Below, one piece after another: positions 4,588-51,065 of a stretch of DNA of 64,000 nt. Both the position numbers and the translations under genes were made by a program. The DNA is taken from assembly GCF_014773265.1 (NCBI RefSeq), contig NZ_JACWMY010000012.1, positions 62,001 through 126,000 of the forward strand, in the 5' to 3' direction. Within the stretch, counting starts at the first letter, position 1, and each line of letters begins with the position of its first letter. This DNA comes from Mucilaginibacter pankratovii. GTDB taxonomy: Bacteria; Bacteroidota; Bacteroidia; Sphingobacteriales; Sphingobacteriaceae. The notes beneath the pieces are model-generated. The model had not been told where the DNA came from, ran no database searches, and saw only the letters and a program-made list of their open reading frames with translations.

Positions 4588-5835
4588 ATGATCATATTAA
4601 AACTTATCCGCGAAAGTTTCCTGTTTGCATACGATGCGCTTAGGCAAAATAAGCTGCGAACCATGCTATCGTTATTGGGGGTAACCATTGGTATATTTAC
4701 CATTATAGCGGTGTATTCGGCAGTGGATACTTTGCGTAACAACCTGCAGGCAAGCGTAAACAAGCTGGGTAATAACAGTATTTATATAGAGAAATGGCCG
4801 TGGGTAGGCGAAGAGAATTTCCCCTGGTGGAAATACATGCAGCGCCCGGTGGCCAAACTGCGCGATTACGAGCAGGTGCGCCGCCGTAGCCAAACCGCAA
4901 AAGCCATATCGTACGATATCAGTATTGATAACCGCACTGTAAAATATGGCAGCAACACGGTTGATGGTGCCCAGATAGGTGCCGTATCATTTGAGCACGA
5001 CAAGGTGATCAACTTTGATTTTAAAGACGGGCGGTATTTTACCGAGATTGAAGCGCGTACAGGTGCCCCAATTACCCTGATAGGTTATGATATTGCCGAA
5101 AATCTTTTTCCGGCGGGCGATGCGGTAGGCAAGCAGATAAAAATTATGGGCCGCAAGGTTACCGTTATAGGCGTGTTTACCAAGCAGGGCGATGATATGC
5201 TGGGCATATCAACCGATAAGCAAGTGTTGGTGCCCCTGAATTTTGCCAAGAACGTTATTGACGTGGAGAACGAAAAATACCAGCCTTCTATCGTTGTACG
5301 TGGGTTAGATAACCTATCGGAAGACGAAGTGGAAAGTGAGATCCGTGGTATCATGCGTTCTGTAAGAAGTATCCGCCCCGGCGCTGAAGATAATTTTGCG
5401 CTGAACAAATCGAGCGTTATCACCAATCAATTGGACAGCTTATTTGGGATAGTGAATAAGGGCGGGTTTATTATCGGTTTATTTTCCCTGCTGGTAGGTG
5501 GGTTTGGCGTGGCCAATATCATGTTTGTATCGGTAAGAGAGCGTACTAACATCATAGGTATCCAGAAATCGCTTGGCGCGAAAAATTACTTTATTTTGCT
5601 GCAATTCCTCATCGAATCCATGATCCTGTGCCTGATTGGGGGCCTTATAGGCATCGGATTGGTTTACCTGGGCACCTTTGGCGTAAAGGCAGCAACGGAT
5701 CTTCAAATCATTTTAGATATAGATAACATCATAACCGGCGTAAGCTATTCCCTAACCATCGGTATCATTGCAGGTATCATCCCGGCGTATGGCGCTTCGC
5801 GTATGGATCCGGTTGAGGCTATCCGCACAAACTAA
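4588..5835 (+). CDS. MacB/FtsX-type ABC transporter permease
   Basis: This 415 aa inner-membrane protein has the MacB topology. One transmembrane helix near residues 26-46 (MLSLLGVTIGIFTIIAVYSA) is followed by a periplasmic MacB_PCD domain of about 240 residues. Three C-terminal helices make up the FtsX domain (about 290-405), which carries VGGFGVANIMFVSVRERTNI, a typical coupling segment, and the family ending GIIPAYGASRMDPVEAIRTN. Such permeases drive export or mechanotransmission across the envelope. No ATPase or membrane-fusion partner is adjacent, so its ATP-binding subunit must be encoded elsewhere. It converges on the histidine kinase gene with a gap of only 6 bases. Confidence 0.9.
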   Translation: MIILKLIRESFLFAYDALRQNKLRTMLSLLGVTIGIFTIIAVYSAVDTLRNNLQASVNKLGNNSIYIEKWPWVGEENFPWWKYMQRPVAKLRDYEQVRRRSQTAKAISYDISIDNRTVKYGSNTVDGAQIGAVSFEHDKVINFDFKDGRYFTEIEARTGAPITLIGYDIAENLFPAGDAVGKQIKIMGRKVTVIGVFTKQGDDMLGISTDKQVLVPLNFAKNVIDVENEKYQPSIVVRGLDNLSEDEVESEIRGIMRSVRSIRPGAEDNFALNKSSVITNQLDSLFGIVNKGGFIIGLFSLLVGGFGVANIMFVSVRERTNIIGIQKSLGAKNYFILLQFLIESMILCLIGGLIGIGLVYLGTFGVKAATDLQIILDIDNIITGVSYSLTIGIIAGIIPAYGASRMDPVEAIRTN

Positions 5836-5841
5836 TCGCAG

Positions 5842-8800
5842 CTAAACCAAGCCGTTAGGTGCAGTAACCGCCGGTTTGCAATGCTTTGATATTTTGCCGA
5901 ACAGATCCTCGGGTACAAATGGTTTGGTAAGGTAATCGCACATCCCGTGTTCAAAAGCTTTAGCGTGTGTTTCGGGCATGGCATCGGCGGTAAAGGCTAT
6001 AATAGGCAGTTGGGGCTGTGATTCCTTAATAATAGCCGAGGCCTCGAAGCCATCCATTACAGGCATTTGCAGGTCCATAATAATCAGGTCGTATACTTTT
6101 TCGGTAGCCATATTCACCGCTATTTGTCCGTTGAGGGCTTCATCTACATTAGCCTGCCATTTTTTTAGGAACTTGGAGGCTATCATGATATTCATCTTAT
6201 TATCATCCACCACCAAAATATTCATACCGTAAAGGTTTGGCGGCAACGGTGTATGTGGAGCTGTTTCGGGCTGAGCGGTTAACTGCGCTGCCAGGTCAAA
6301 CAATACCGGGAAGCTGAATTGTGTGCCTTTGCCCAATTCGCTGCTTACCTGTATGGTGCTATTGTAAAGCTCTACCAGCCGCTTGGTTATCGCCAGGCCA
6401 AGGCCCGTACCACCGTAATCGTTATTGATTACCTGTTCTTCCTGTATAAAAGGATCGAAGATAACGCCAAGGTTCCCGGGTGCTATGCCGATGCCGGTAT
6501 CGGTAACTTTAAATTTAATCAGTATTTCTTTATCGCTTAGCTGTTGGTTCTCCAGTGCAATAGTTACCTTGCCTTTTTTGGTAAACTTAACGGCGTTGTT
6601 TACCAGGTTTATCAATATTTGCCCAAGCCGTGTTTGGTCGCCTACAAGGTATTCGGGGATGCTGCTGTCGGCTATTAATTCTATCTCCAGGTTTTTTTCT
6701 ATCGCTTTGGCATAAAACGACTGCCTGACGTTTTGCGCCAGGTGGTGAATGTTAAAAACCGAATTGTTCAATACCAGCTTGCCCGCCTCTATTTTGTTGT
6801 AATCCAATATATCGTTGATGATGGCCAACAGGTTTTCGCCGCTGAATTTAAGGGTGTTAAGGTATTCTAATTGCTCGGGGCGAGGGTCTTCTGACAATAG
6901 CAGGTTGGTGGTGCCTATCACGGCGTTCATCGGCGTGCGAATCTCGTGGCTCATGATAGAAAGGAACTCTGATTTAAAGTGTGAGGATCGCTCGGCCTGT
7001 TCCTTTGCGGTGATGAGTTCCTGCCTTGCTATCTGCTGCAGGGTAATATCTTCGCCTATACTGGTTGTGCCTTTAAGCTTGCCATCATCGTCATAACTGA
7101 TGGTGTTTTGCCAACTGATGATGCGCTGCTCTCCGTTACGGCAAATAATAGGGTTTACAAAATGTGGCGCAACGGTATTGTGTTCAAACCAGGCGGTCAT
7201 CATTTCACGAAGGTCTTCGGGTACAAAATTGTCCATCCAGTTCATGCCCAGTATCTCACCCTGCTGATAGCCCACCAGGTGGGCCAGGTATTTATTGCAG
7301 AAAATAACATTGCCGTTAGCATCCAGGGATAGCGCCGCCAGCTTAATAGTTTCCAGCACCTGCTGAAATTTATTCTCCGTGCTTTTGTGCTCTATTTCGG
7401 CCTGTTTGCGCTGGGTGATGTCCTGCAGGGTGCCTACAATTTTACGTACGGTGCCGTCTTCGCGCAGCATTAGCTTGCCGGTAATTACACTCACGTGCTT
7501 TAAATTGCCTTTGGGGGTAATAATGCGATATTCCACCGCTACATCCGATGCAGCTTTAAATAAGTTCCTGATCACATAAACATCATCCGGGTGAATGTAT
7601 TTGATCAGGGTTCTGCCTGCTATTGATATTGAGGCCTCACTTTCGTCCAGTTCATAAATTGCGTTCACTTCATCGCTCCAGGCAAGTTTTTTTGTGGTGT
7701 TATCAAACTTCCAGTTACCAATTTTGGCTATCTTTTGAGCTTCCAGCAGTTCTGTCTGGCTTATTTTTACCGCTTTTTCGGCCAGGCGGGCATCGGTAAC
7801 ATCCTGTATAATACCAACTATGCGTTGTAGTTTACCATCTTCGTTGTATTGCAGGGCGCCCCGTAATATTTTAATATACTTTAAATTACCTTTCGGGGTA
7901 ATCATTTTATGCTCGTGGCTGGCTTCTGTTATGGTGGTGATATTTGTAAAATATGCCGAGGTACGCTCCAGGTCGTCGGGGTGTACCAGGCTCATGTAGT
8001 ATCTAAACTTGTCAAACTCGCCCGGGATGTTATCAACCTCTAAAACGGTGAACAGATTGTCGGACCAATAATCTTCGCGCGTGATGGCATTAAACCACCA
8101 GTTACCTGTTTTTGCTATGCTTTGAGCCTGTTGTAAAAGGGCCTCGCTTTCTTTTAAGGCGTCGGCACGCCTTTTTTGTTCGGTAATATCGGTAACCGCT
8201 ACGGATATGCGGCGCATGTAATTGCCATTAACGTCAAATACTGCCGAGATCTTAGACATGAACCACTTTGGCTTGCCATACAGCGACGGGAACTCTATAG
8301 TGGCGGTCTCTTTATTTTTTATAACTCCATGGTAAACATTTTCAAAGTAAACACCCTGTTCCGGCCCCACCACCTCCAGGAGGCTTTTATTTAAAAAGTG
8401 ATCTTCAGCTAAGTAGGATGGGCTGTGCGGCCCAAACCAAACGTTAAGGCATACCATATTCTCATCCAGCTCAAAAATGGTATCGTTTACCGAACTGATA
8501 AGCGCGTGCAGTTGTGCCTGGCTGGCGCGTAGCTTATGATCGTTCTCTACCAGCGATTCGTTTAGCTGTAATACCTCGCCCAGCGCTTTTTTAAACTGCA
8601 TCTGGTAGCTCACCATCACAAAGAATGATACATAGGCAATAAGCGTAAAAACAACCAGCAAAACAACAAGCACACCGCCCGATATAAACAGCTTTGGGGA
8701 ATAGTAGTAAGCGCCAAGGATGGCAATAAAATTCAGCACGCTAACGGTAACAAATTCCCAGCGCCTGTTGCAAAAAAACGTTAATGAAATAAATATGGTG

Positions 8801-46799: not shown

Positions 46800-47549
46800 T
46801 TGCACTTCCCGGTAAATATCCCAATTGGTTCTGCTGCTATCCCTGTTCATTTTGTATGCGAAACGCTGGCTTACTTCCTTGGCTACCGGTACTATGCTTA
46901 TCTCCGTAAAAACACCCAGGACCAAATCAGCGCCAATAACCGGCTCGTTATTTTTATTGGGGCGGCATTTGGCGCATTTTTGGGCAGCCATATTGTTGGT
47001 GTGCTGGAGAACCTAACCTTGCTGTCGCATTTCAACCTCATCTATTTTATGGGTAACAAAACCATTGTAGGCGGCATGCTTGGTGGATTGATAGGTGTAG
47101 AACTCACCAAAAAGCGAATTGGCGTAACCGTATCCTCCGGCGACCTGATGGTGTACCCGCTGATACTGGCTATGATCATCGGTCGCACCGGCTGCTTTTT
47201 GGCGGGACTGGAAGACGGTACTTACGGCATTGCCAGCAATTTACCCTGGGCCATCAATTTTGGCGACGGCATCCGCAGACATCCTACCAATTTGTACGAG
47301 ATCTTATTTTGGCTGATGCTTTGGATAAGCCTGAGTTTGGTGGAGCGGAAGCACGAATTTGCCAACGGCGCAAGGTTTAAAGTGTTTATGGCGAGTTACC
47401 TCATCTTCCGCCTGCTGGTGGAGTTTATTAAGCCCGCTTACTTTTTTGGCTTCGGGCTCTCGGTAATTCAGTTGGTTTGTATCGGCGGAATTTTGTATTA
47501 TTATAAAGTATTTCTCTATCCTTCAAAACTCATAAAAACCTATGCCTGA
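46800..47549 (+). CDS. Prolipoprotein diacylglyceryl transferase (Lgt) family protein
   Basis: A 249 aa polytopic protein with about seven helices. Only a TTG start (46800) is available, since the frame has a TAA 15 bases upstream and no ATG near the N-terminus. Lgt-like features are [26 protein letters not shown] and the signature [18 protein letters not shown] with the active Arg, then [11 protein letters not shown]. Lgt transfers diacylglycerol from phosphatidylglycerol to lipobox Cys. It is shorter than typical Lgt, so a special acceptor is possible. It overlaps the next gene by 8 bases. Confidence 0.85.
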
Positions 47550-48945
47550 ACGCCCGTATATTTATTACGATTTTACTTTAAGCATATGTTCTACCTGTTT
47601 GCGCAGGGTGGATGCTAAGATAGTTTTTGAGGAAGGCAACGTTTATATGTTGAAGAACTGCCGCCAGCATGGTTTCGAAAAAGTGCTGATAGCTACCGAT
47701 ATCGAGTATTATAAAAACTGCCGTAACTATGCCAAGCGCAGCGAAATGCCGCTAAAATTTAATGCCGAAACCCATTACGGCTGCCCTTACGATTGCGGCC
47801 TGTGCCGCGACCATGAACAGCATTCCTGCCTTACCGTGGTGGAAGTTACCGACCGCTGTAACCTCGCCTGCCCAACCTGCTACGCTATGTCGTCGCCGCA
47901 TTATGGCAGGCACCGCACCTTGCAGGAGATAGAGCAGATGCTGGATGTGATTGTGGAGAACGAGGGACAGCCCGATGTGGTGCAATTGAGCGGCGGCGAA
48001 CCTACGGTGCATCCGCAATTTTTCGAGATACTGGATATTGCCAAAACGAAGCCCATCAAACACCTGATGCTGAATACAAACGGCATCCGTATAGCTAAGG
48101 ACGAAAATTTTGTAAAACGCCTGGCGACCTATCAGCCCGATTTTGAGATCTACCTGCAATTCGACTCGTTTGAGGCAGAAGCCTTGATAAAATTGAGAGG
48201 GGAGGATCTTACAGACGTCAGGGCAAAAGCTATAGAGCACTTGAATAAATACAATCTTTCTACCACATTGGTAGTCACCCTGCAAAAGGGATTGAATACG
48301 CATGAGATAGGTAAGATCATCGAATATGCCCTGCAGCAACCCTGCATCCGCGGCGTAACCTTCCAGCCAACACAGCAGGCGGGGCGGCTGGAGAACTTTA
48401 ACCCGGCAACCGACCGCTATACCCTTACCGAGGTACGCAGCGCCATATTAGCGCAAACCAATGTTTTCAATGCCAACGACCTCATTCCCGTGCCATGTAA
48501 CCCCGATGCACTGGTGATGGGCTACGCGCTAAAGCTGGGCGGACAGGTTTTCCCGCTTACGCGGATGATCAATCCGGACGATCTGCTGGATAACTCCAAA
48601 AATACCATCGTTTATGAGCAGGACGAACAATTGAAGGGACATTTACTCAATATGTTCAGCACGGGTAACTCGGTGGAGAAGGCCAAAGAGCACCTCAAAT
48701 CTATTATGTGCTGCCTGCCTGACATAGACGCACCGCAGTTGAGCTATGATAACCTGTTTAGAGTAATTATCATGAATTTTATTGATGCGCAGAATTTTGA
48801 TGTACGCGCCATCAAAAAATCATGTGTACACATCGTAAACAAGGATCTGCAGATCATCCCCTTTGAAACCATGAATATTTTTTACCGGGACGATAAGCGC
48901 GAATATTTGGAACAACTACGTACCGAAATGGCCGCAACTTTTTAA
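47542..48945 (+). CDS. Tetraether-synthase-like radical SAM protein
   Basis: A 467 aa radical SAM enzyme. The core motif CNLACPTCYAM carries the 4Fe-4S ligands C106, C110 and C113. Before it are features of archaeal Tes (MJ0619-like) proteins: ICSTCLRRVDAKIVFEEGNV, YMLKNCRQHGFEKV, and a CPYDCGLCRDH auxiliary cluster site. After it come SGGEPTVHP and a C-terminal region with MCCLPDIDAPQ. Tes joins lipid alkyl chains through C-C bonds. The ATG overlaps the Lgt stop, and two small membrane proteins follow, suggesting a lipid or lipoprotein substrate. Confidence 0.85.
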   Translation: MPERPYIYYDFTLSICSTCLRRVDAKIVFEEGNVYMLKNCRQHGFEKVLIATDIEYYKNCRNYAKRSEMPLKFNAETHYGCPYDCGLCRDHEQHSCLTVVEVTDRCNLACPTCYAMSSPHYGRHRTLQEIEQMLDVIVENEGQPDVVQLSGGEPTVHPQFFEILDIAKTKPIKHLMLNTNGIRIAKDENFVKRLATYQPDFEIYLQFDSFEAEALIKLRGEDLTDVRAKAIEHLNKYNLSTTLVVTLQKGLNTHEIGKIIEYALQQPCIRGVTFQPTQQAGRLENFNPATDRYTLTEVRSAILAQTNVFNANDLIPVPCNPDALVMGYALKLGGQVFPLTRMINPDDLLDNSKNTIVYEQDEQLKGHLLNMFSTGNSVEKAKEHLKSIMCCLPDIDAPQLSYDNLFRVIIMNFIDAQNFDVRAIKKSCVHIVNKDLQIIPFETMNIFYRDDKREYLEQLRTEMAATF

Positions 48946-48951
48946 TAAGAT

Positions 48952-49227
48952 ATGGAAGAGAAAAACCTGATTCCCAAACAAGAATTAAGCTACAAAATAG
49001 TCGGCATCAATTTAGCGGTGCTGGCGGTATATACGCTGCTTTCAGCTTTATCTCCCGGAGGGATCATTTTTGATGCTTTCGCGATCGTTGTCCATGTTAT
49101 TGTTTGCATCATATTAACCTTAACAGGGCCCAAACGAATGCAGTGGTTGTTAAGTGGTGTTTTGGTATTAGTTATTGGTTTTTCAACTTGTGCAGGCGTG
49201 TTGGGTAAAATGAGTGGAGGGTTTTAA
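48952..49227 (+). CDS. Small three-helix membrane protein A
   Basis: A 91 aa protein starting MEEKNLIPKQELSYK, then three hydrophobic segments (GINLAVLAVYTLLSALS; AFAIVVHVIVCIILTL; LLSGVLVLVIGFSTCAGVL). It begins 6 bases after the radical SAM stop. It shares the C-terminal LVLVIGFSTC motif with the next gene, so the two are tandem paralogs. No known family was recognised. The single conserved Cys in the last helix is notable. Confidence 0.7.
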   Translation: MEEKNLIPKQELSYKIVGINLAVLAVYTLLSALSPGGIIFDAFAIVVHVIVCIILTLTGPKRMQWLLSGVLVLVIGFSTCAGVLGKMSGGF

Positions 49228-49228
49228 T

Positions 49229-49492
49229 ATGGAAGAGATAAGCATTAAACCCCAACGTCAACCCAAATGGGTTGTAGTGGCCATAAATATAGCCGTTATG
49301 GTTGCTTATACCGTTTACTTCAGGTTTGTAGAAGGACAATATAATTTTATTGCCATTGCCATGCTGATAGCTATGCATGTGGCGCTATGCCTGGTGCTGG
49401 CCATCTTCGTTTTTAGCAAGGAATTTTTATTGAGCGCCGCCCTGGTGCTGGTTATCGGGTTCTCTACCTGCTGGCTGGTATTTGCTGTATAG
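49229..49492 (+). CDS. Small three-helix membrane protein B
   Basis: An 87 aa paralog of the preceding gene, starting at the ATG at 49229, one base after its stop. It begins MEEISIKPQRQPKWVV, has helices AINIAVMVAYTVYFRFV, AIAMLIAMHVALCLVLAIFV and LLSAALVLVIGFSTCWLVFAV, and keeps the same GFSTC motif. The spacing indicates co-translation with protein A, which may mean the two form a complex. Function unknown. Confidence 0.7.
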   Translation: MEEISIKPQRQPKWVVVAINIAVMVAYTVYFRFVEGQYNFIAIAMLIAMHVALCLVLAIFVFSKEFLLSAALVLVIGFSTCWLVFAV

Positions 49493-49566: not shown

Positions 49567-50361
49567 ATGCAGCCCATCAAACACGTCAGTATCCCCCAGC
49601 CCTGCCACGAAGATTGGCAGCAGATGACGCGAGTAGCGCAAGGCAGGCACTGCCAAAGCTGCTGTAAAACCGTTATCGACTTTACGGCGATGAGTAATGC
49701 GGAAGTGATTAACTACCTCGCCATGCATAAAAACACCTGTGGAAGGATTGAGCATAGCAGGCTGGCCGGGATAAACTACGAATTGGAGGCTGATGATAAA
49801 AGACTATTTTCCTGGAAAGGCCTGCTTGCAGCAGCTTCACTCAGTATACTGTTCCCGGCGATAGATGTTCAGGCGCAAATCGGGCCTAAAATCGAGCAAT
49901 TGCCTTATGCTTCGTTCCCTCGCGGCAAAATGATGGTAAGTAGTAAAGTCGGCTCCATTACCATTGAAGGCAAGGTAACCGCAAAGGAAGATGGGCAACC
50001 TATCCCCGGAGTCAGCATAATTGTCAAAGGCATATCAACAGGCACAAAAACTACGGCCGACGGCAGCTTTAAATTAAAACTGCTTAATGTTAACGATACA
50101 ATTAGGATATCATCTGTGAGCTACAAGCCGGTAGAAATGCCCGTAGGGCACGGTTCGAAAGCCATTGATATCAGTTTGGAGATAGCGCCCATCGTACTGA
50201 ATGATGTGCTTGTGCAACGGTATGCCAGTTCGACAAGGCAATGCAGTACGTTGGGCGTTGTTGTTACCCTCAATGGCAAAAAGATACCATTTTACCTGCG
50301 CTGGTGGTATTGGTTGGTGCATAAGGCCCGGCACATCATTGCAGCCATTAACCCCTTTTAA
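49567..50361 (+). CDS. CarboxypepD_reg protein with N-terminal Cys-rich domain
   Basis: A 264 aa membrane protein found widely in Bacteroidota. The N-terminal ~60 residues form a cysteine-rich domain (PQPCHEDWQQMTRVAQGRHC, CCKTVIDFTAMSN and KNTCGRI), which could bind metal or heme. A helix (LFSWKGLLAAASLSILFPAI) crosses the membrane. The extracytoplasmic part is a CarboxypepD_reg beta-sandwich (EGKVTAKEDGQPIPGVSIIV; GTKTTADGSFKLKL; RISSVSYKPVEM). It ends FYLRWWYWLVHKARHIIAAI. A decayed paralog lies directly downstream. Confidence 0.8.
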   Translation: MQPIKHVSIPQPCHEDWQQMTRVAQGRHCQSCCKTVIDFTAMSNAEVINYLAMHKNTCGRIEHSRLAGINYELEADDKRLFSWKGLLAAASLSILFPAIDVQAQIGPKIEQLPYASFPRGKMMVSSKVGSITIEGKVTAKEDGQPIPGVSIIVKGISTGTKTTADGSFKLKLLNVNDTIRISSVSYKPVEMPVGHGSKAIDISLEIAPIVLNDVLVQRYASSTRQCSTLGVVVTLNGKKIPFYLRWWYWLVHKARHIIAAINPF

Positions 50362-50394: not shown

Positions 50395-51065
50395 GATGTA
50401 AGTATCAAACACATCAACATCCCCCAGTCTCGCCATCAATCCTGGAGCGACTGTAATTAAGATACCTTGCCAGTCACAGCAAAAAAGGAATATATTTATG
50501 GAATTGTTCTATCAATTGCTGATACACGAAAGCACTTATGAAGTCAAGAAAAACATGTGGTAAGTTTGATGAGTGTGAAATCGTTTTAATTACTCATTGC
50601 TCATACGAAAGTAGAAAGGCTCCTCTGTTGTGGGGATTTTTATTGACTACGGCCATGTTGATTTTGGTAAATGTCTTTGTCGAGGCCAGTGAAAGACCGC
50701 AAAAAAATATAATAAATACACCTATCCCAAGATTATTATCTACCCAAACCTTTACATTACGAGGGAGGGCATTGAACAAAAGTACAAAACTGCCTTTGTC
50801 AGACGTTAAGATCAGGTTAAAGGGTACGCTTAATCAAGTTTTTACAGATAGTACCGGAAGTTTTAAATTGCAGGTTCCGCCAGCAGCCACCTTAATAATA
50901 AGTTGTGTAGGTTACTCATCGAGAGAGTTGCCTATCGGCAGCCCGAGTGGAAGTCCGATAGAAATTTATTTGCAGGAAAGTACTGATTATTTTATAAGCC
51001 CAGTGGTTGTAAAATCACCGCCCTTTTATACACGGTGGTGGCGAAAAATTAAACATATCTTTTAA
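50395..51065 (+). pseudogene. Decayed paralog of the gene at 49567
   Basis: The sequence at 50395 matches the 49567 start (shared ATCAAACAC and ATCCCCCAG), but the second codon is TAA and one base is missing, shifting the frame. Further on, CQS and YEVKKN pieces of the N-terminal Cys domain appear in different frames with stops between. The intact piece is an ORF at 50538-51065 (175 aa): KTCGKFDE, a membrane helix, then a CarboxypepD_reg domain (GRALNKSTKLPLSDVKIRLK; FTDSTGSFKLQV) ending FYTRWWRKIKHIF like the intact copy. It could still be translated as a shorter protein. It overlaps the ppx-like gene by 4 bases. Confidence 0.75.

Follow-up and report, generated by a model that had tools for sequence, protein, structure and literature searches.

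A four-gene unit of the soil bacterium Mucilaginibacter pankratovii (Bacteroidota) combines a paralogue of the prolipoprotein transferase Lgt, a radical SAM protein (rSAM) that is closest to the Tes/TrsS branch, and small membrane proteins that end shortly after a cysteine at the tip of their last helix. Lgt paralogue, rSAM and Cys-tipped small proteins are inherited as a set. We propose that the four genes act as one post-translational lipid-modification unit in three steps, a model that, taken as a whole, we place a little short of an even chance. The unit itself is well established; the lipidation of the small proteins and the chain chemistry are what we infer from its genes.

Organization of the locus

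The window, the whole stretch of 64,000 nucleotides that was analyzed, carries the four genes on the forward strand. The gene of the Lgt homologue (46800-47549, 249 aa) starts with TTG and overlaps by 8 bases with the rSAM gene (47542-48945, 467 aa), which is followed after 6 bases by small protein 1 (48952-49227, 91 aa) and, after one further base, by small protein 2 (49229-49492, 87 aa from its ATG; translation might instead begin at an in-frame GTG, 49214). This tight spacing had been given in a preliminary description of the locus and is reproduced by ORF calling. Apart from local synteny, no conserved neighbours were found outside the unit in Bacteroidota loci. Two genes for CarboxypepD_reg-domain proteins lie immediately 3′ of the unit (49567-50361 and 50538-51065); the first product has a Cys-rich N-terminal segment (CHEDW...GRHCQSCCKTVIDF), and a gene resembling it also follows the unit in locus L198.

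Co-occurrence and distribution

The unit is regarded as more than chance because the same genes recur together across genomes. Within the order, rSAM is found in 77 of 201 genomes and the Lgt paralogue in the identical 77. In the phylum sample, where rSAM was scored at E below 1e-100, 24 of 296 genomes carry it, and the Lgt paralogue occurs in those 24 and in G166. rSAM and the small proteins share the identical 37 of 61 genomes of the genus, and every small-protein match there lies on the rSAM contig, close by rSAM. The Fisher p values (order 1e-57, phylum 2e-34, genus 2e-17) are descriptive, the genomes being related and hence not independent. A scan of named genomes adds 80 loci from many phyla with an Lgt homologue nearby in 72; most of the other eight are cut by contig ends, and only L161 clearly has room on both sides. 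The pairwise identities of rSAM and Lgt are correlated (r = 0.90, 111 loci), with a maximum of 0.24 in 2000 permutations.

A few broken linkages would speak for chance neighbours with unrelated functions: G183 and G415 harbor rSAM without an adjacent Lgt gene, the paralogue being located elsewhere in the genome, and G166 (L193) has a lone Lgt paralogue and no rSAM. This explanation is refuted by the near-perfect co-occurrence in three samples and by the adjacency kept across phyla, and it retains next to no probability. Lgt, rSAM and small genes remain together in relatives, and the suggestion that they act together is borne out in that they form a conserved unit by co-occurrence and adjacency across genomes.

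The unit, first described from a mesophilic Bacteroidota bacterium, is not confined to one Bacteroidota group: it is common to many phyla, with the Lgt and rSAM pair also present in Cyanobacteria, Chloroflexota, Bacillota, Actinomycetota, Chlorobiota and others. Even among members of the genus its distribution is patchy, in the manner of a cassette subject to frequent loss or transfer. The Lgt gene of Flavobacterium davisii (L121) is in two pieces, which suggests decay. Two Reyranella loci (Alphaproteobacteria; L142, L169) carry the Lgt and rSAM pair, and a Cys-motif small protein was not found near it.

A longer, five-gene unit (e.g. L104:4989-8836) is found in L101-L118, a group made up for the most part of anaerobes or uncultured bacteria (Ignavibacteria, Elusimicrobia, Chlorobaculum, Bacilli, Actinobacteria, Desulfobulbaceae and others). 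It is composed of rSAM, a methyltransferase-like protein resembling isoprenylcysteine/phospholipid methyltransferases (ICMT/PEMT-like), a DUF4395 protein with a conserved Cys cluster, the Lgt paralogue and either one or a pair of small proteins with FG[SA]C. The unit of the window is a compact version of this extended form.

The radical SAM protein

rSAM matches the Pfam families Radical_SAM and PF23545 (HMPTM N-terminal zinc-ribbon/rubredoxin, Cys-rich; 5.5e-18) and contains the motifs CPYDCGLC and CNLACPTC, so that the Cys-rich N-terminal signature with its CPYDCGLC site, as first read from the DNA, is confirmed. A rubredoxin-type CxxC...CxxH site is built from C16, C19, C40 and H43, and an N-terminal auxiliary CxxxCxxC site with a His (CPYDCGLC-xx-H) from C81, C85, C88 and H91. 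The radical SAM CxxxCxxC motif comprises C106, C110 and C113 (codons 47857-47880, forward strand) and is invariant in the alignment. The C-terminal part holds C319, a C390-C391 pair and C428, and the choice among these of likely cluster ligands is our own.

The best-scoring curated family is NCBIfam TrsS (NF045646; 322.4 bits, residues 12-452), followed by Tes (NF045702; 266.6 bits), and both scores are below the equivalog cut-offs of 490 and 450 bits, respectively. The next curated NCBIfam family, the unrelated MoaA, reaches 63 bits. Nine of ten scanned relatives score 301-382 bits against TrsS, the tenth (L105) being a broken ORF, and a true Tes of the same phylum (L064) attains 493.8 bits on NF045702. 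The curated scores rule out filing rSAM as either Tes or TrsS. The sole strong PDB sequence match is GDGT/macrocyclic archaeol synthase (4.6e-62).

The AlphaFold model (mean pLDDT 76, pTM 0.83; residues 65-93 and parts of 348-400 poor) aligns with archaeal Tes (7tom) over 403 residues at a VIA Z of 39.5 and an rmsd of 3.4, the next-best family having a Z of 18.9. Foldseek likewise returns 7tom/7tol at E 6e-36 and the next match at 2e-10. Mapped with an offset of 20 between chain index and paper numbering, the alignment retains the equivalent of Tes Met439 (M411); Tes Tyr459 and the Cys of the Tes PFC motif are without equivalents, the positions being taken by I431 and, in PFE, by E442. The Tes metal sites are conserved except at the C-terminus, where the C390-C391 pair is additional. 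Owing to E442 and I431, the C-terminal cluster and the reaction may differ from those of Tes.

In a tree of 44 sequences, rSAM belongs to a 100/100-supported clade of Bacteroidota, Cyanobacteriota, Reyranella and one Limnohabitans, separate from a mainly anaerobe clade and from two Tes sequences; long branches meet at the deepest splits, according to a program warning, and the order of those splits is unsure. The protein is 86% identical to rSAM of an uncultured Mucilaginibacter (L179). It is regarded as a separate lineage because it scores under the Tes and TrsS cut-offs and two Tes residues are absent. The label "tetraether-synthase-like" therefore survives for the fold and for the Tes/TrsS branch, far from the other curated rSAM families, and fails for the curated Tes score and for some Tes residues.

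Compared with Tes/GDGT-MAS (MJ0619, PDB 7tol/7tom), a phospholipid-binding enzyme that joins the ends of lipid chains (PMC9433317), rSAM shares the whole-length fold, the rubredoxin-type site, the N-terminal auxiliary cluster with its His and the radical SAM core, and it differs further in being partnered by an Lgt paralogue and small Cys proteins. The TrsS radical SAM (seleno)protein, described by Haft and Tolstoy (2025; cited in PMC13188914), is alike by sequence score over nearly the full length; rSAM differs in having no selenocysteine. Mss, the bacterial membrane-spanning lipid synthase, is also a Tes-related bacterial radical SAM enzyme and differs, in its known forms, in using free acyl lipids as substrate (PMC13274423), a comparison with rSAM made by description.

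Two candidate selenocysteine codons were rejected. In L105 (Clostridium lacusfryxellense, 4947-6326) the stop is a TAA inside GCP*DCG, beside a short insertion, and the gene is probably broken, a pseudogene or an assembly error; the TGA of L044 is the normal stop of that gene. A very divergent rSAM (L046/L063, G244) has lost the N-terminal auxiliary CPxDCGxC cysteines, and still an Lgt homologue is encoded in its vicinity, together with a 140-aa protein that terminates in GGMC-IFLPQPL.

The Lgt paralogue

Lgt transfers diacylglycerol onto a Cys thiol, and roles have been described for residues including Arg143, Arg239, Glu243 and a proposed catalytic His103 (PMC4728403, PMC8689077). The Lgt homologue of the unit belongs to Pfam LGT (PF01790; 74 bits, 1.5e-20; gathering score of 24.9 passed) and is the lowest-scoring of three PF01790 genes in the genome. 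On the curated TIGR00544 model it scores 28.1 and the other copies 75.5 and 53.6, all below the cut-off of 118.9. This copy is the weakest scorer, and 124 of the 201 order genomes lack close relatives of it; it is therefore not the housekeeping enzyme.

The equivalents of Escherichia coli Lgt (PDB 5azb) R143 and R239 are R129 and R204, which are invariant; that of E243 is E208 (mostly E, some D). The HPxxLYE motif is kept, and the HGGL motif with His103 is absent, its place being taken by TIVGG with V90. Both other PF01790 copies of the genome have a Tyr at the His103 site and a Cys at the Asn146 site; the Asn146-site change is common to all copies, so it is nothing special to the unit. The Val at the His103 site means that the reaction of the paralogue may differ, and the paralogue also departs from Lgt in nearly always accompanying rSAM.

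The missing His103 equivalent, which is thought to activate the protein acceptor, speaks for a pathway of free lipids, in which rSAM would produce a membrane lipid that is coupled or otherwise altered, and diacylglyceryl or glycerol groups would be passed between lipids by the Lgt paralogue. The small protein would serve as a carrier or adaptor, with the lipid on its Cys during passage only. Tes and bacterial Mss indeed produce free membrane-spanning lipids (PMC9433317, PMC13274423). The tandem expansion and fast divergence of the small proteins, however, fit a substrate better than a carrier, and the single true Tes that was inspected (L064) has no Lgt homologue next to it. We consider this pathway unlikely, though it deserves to be kept in view.

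The small Cys-tipped membrane proteins

Small protein 1 is a small three-helix membrane protein with an IGFST-C80 motif and an 11-residue tail; its AF2 model shows three helices at low confidence (pLDDT 69, pTM 0.38). Small protein 2, likewise a membrane protein, carries IGFST-C81 and a 6-residue tail. That the two are paralogues sharing GFSTC, as previously noticed, is verified by phmmer cross-matches (E 8e-13 and 2e-13) and by IGFSTC in both. The codons of the invariant Cys, the proposed lipid acceptors, are at 49189-49191 (column C80) and 49469-49471, both on the forward strand. Neither protein could be assigned to a known family, nothing matching above cut-off in Pfam or NCBIfam.

In most loci, at least one small hydrophobic ORF with a last helix ending in Cys adjoins rSAM or Lgt. 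Requiring a Gly just before the Cys leaves 149 such proteins, spread over 106 of 128 loci, a set that includes a few false positives. Of 185 adjacent small ORFs that are hydrophobic, 110 (from 77 of 128 loci) contain the strict pattern G-x-[GS]-x-C at most 22 residues from the end, as against 4 of 364 other ORFs; the pattern was chosen after inspection of the data, and the contrast counts for more than a p value. The small proteins are not incidental, their invariant Cys being the feature common to most lineages.

Positions -5 to -1 prefer I/V/L, G, F/L, G/S and T/I/V/A, and the Cys lies a median of 19 residues past the last K/R. Of 75 non-redundant proteins, 65 have a positively charged loop before the last helix, an arrangement for which the positive-inside rule predicts an outer-face Cys. 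The tail after the Cys is short (median 8 residues) and variable even inside the genus, where M1, N20, Y27, L67 and C80 are the only invariant positions. One to five diverged copies stand in tandem per locus of the genus, with an additional, truncated one in G488, and identities are 31-47% for the small proteins and 84-98% for rSAM. In paired small proteins (e.g. L014, L016, L150, L176), one tail is often about 6-7 aa long, and the second runs to about 10-11 aa with H, K or R as its final residue.

Positive charge, a hydrophobic helix and then an outer-face Cys are shared with lipoprotein signal peptides. The small proteins differ in that one or two other helices precede this final one, in having almost no residues past the Cys, and in departing from the lipobox consensus [LV][ASTVI][GAS]C (PMC8689077): the window proteins read F-S-T-C, and the family has mostly F/L at -3, G/S at -2 and T/I/V/A/S at -1.

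Variable copies around a fixed Cys and tails that differ even between members of the genus would also suit a RiPP-like pathway, as would the frequent overlap of the rSAM stop codon with the small-protein start. In such a pathway, rSAM would modify the small protein (e.g. by forming a thioether or a C-C bond on the Cys or close to it), Lgt would then lipidate or anchor it, and the tail or a cleaved lipopeptide would be the active product. With regard to typical RiPP precursors, tandem variable copies are seen, and neither a recognition domain nor a precursor family match is found in Pfam and NCBIfam. rSAM is much nearer to a lipid enzyme than to the SPASM peptide maturases, Pfam finds no leader-binding domain, and the predicted outer-face position of the Cys is remote from the cytoplasmic enzyme. 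These points make the RiPP-like pathway improbable.

The small proteins could instead be non-substrate subunits or anchors that recruit rSAM or stabilize the Lgt paralogue, with a structural or redox role of the Cys. They are tiny, membrane-embedded and adjacent, and in G415 the small protein stays beside rSAM with Lgt elsewhere. One to five copies that diverge so strongly are nevertheless unusual for a subunit of such a conserved rSAM, and we give this role rather little weight. Tandem diverged copies fit a substrate, not a catalytic subunit.

Proposed mechanism

In the lipid-modification model, the last helix of the small protein would start from the cytoplasmic loop with its positive charge, cross the inner membrane and end at the Cys on the outer face, the insertion geometry being that of a lipoprotein signal peptide. 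The Lgt paralogue would then use its conserved arginines to bind a phosphatidylglycerol-like donor, and would pass a diacylglyceryl or related lipid group to the Cys, with no standard lipobox needed. An Lgt-type outer-face active site and an outer-end Cys would be the two halves of a lipidation reaction, and we regard this second step as about evenly balanced. In the third step, the cytoplasmic Tes-like rSAM would activate unreactive carbons of the lipid chains, in the donor lipid or in the attached chains, and join or modify them, after or before lipidation. This alteration is suggested by the fold, which is that of a lipid-chain-coupling enzyme, and action of rSAM on the chains concerned seems less likely than the lipidation, somewhat under even. 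The product would be a membrane protein with an unusual lipid, possibly cross-linked or membrane-spanning.

Several observations count against the model. The Lgt paralogue has V at the E. coli His103 site, the small-protein motif is off the lipobox (often T, I or V at -1 and F at -3), and rSAM has E442 for the Tes PFC Cys and I431 for Tyr459. Tes moreover takes free lipids into its pocket, and a lipid on a transmembrane protein is not obviously within its reach. The initial reading is partly supported, with lipid or lipoprotein modification as a putative role of the unit.

Implications

Tes homologues in bacteria have already been reported, and the 2022 Tes papers state that the role of most of them is not known (PMC8941075, PMC9433317); Mss is under study (PMC13274423). 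No paper was found in which an Lgt paralogue and Cys-tipped small proteins are connected with this branch of rSAM, in a search that did not cover the paper introducing TrsS, which may have recorded some of the neighbourhood. The unit provides one large branch of bacterial Tes homologues with a constant partner enzyme and with a residue that is likely to be the acceptor, and thereby leads to a simple question: is the Cys lipidated, and is the lipid changed by the radical enzyme? In its broadest form, the model is a widespread lipidation system separate from the lipoprotein pathway, in which the Lgt paralogue lipidates a terminal-helix Cys and the Tes-like enzyme cross-links or rebuilds the attached chains to a protein-bolalipid or similar product in aerobes and anaerobes; we hold this version to be speculative and on balance doubtful. 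If true, it would represent a new kind of protein-lipid modification outside the lipoprotein pathway in common soil and water bacteria, and radical chemistry on hydrocarbon chains would reach past archaeal-type membranes.
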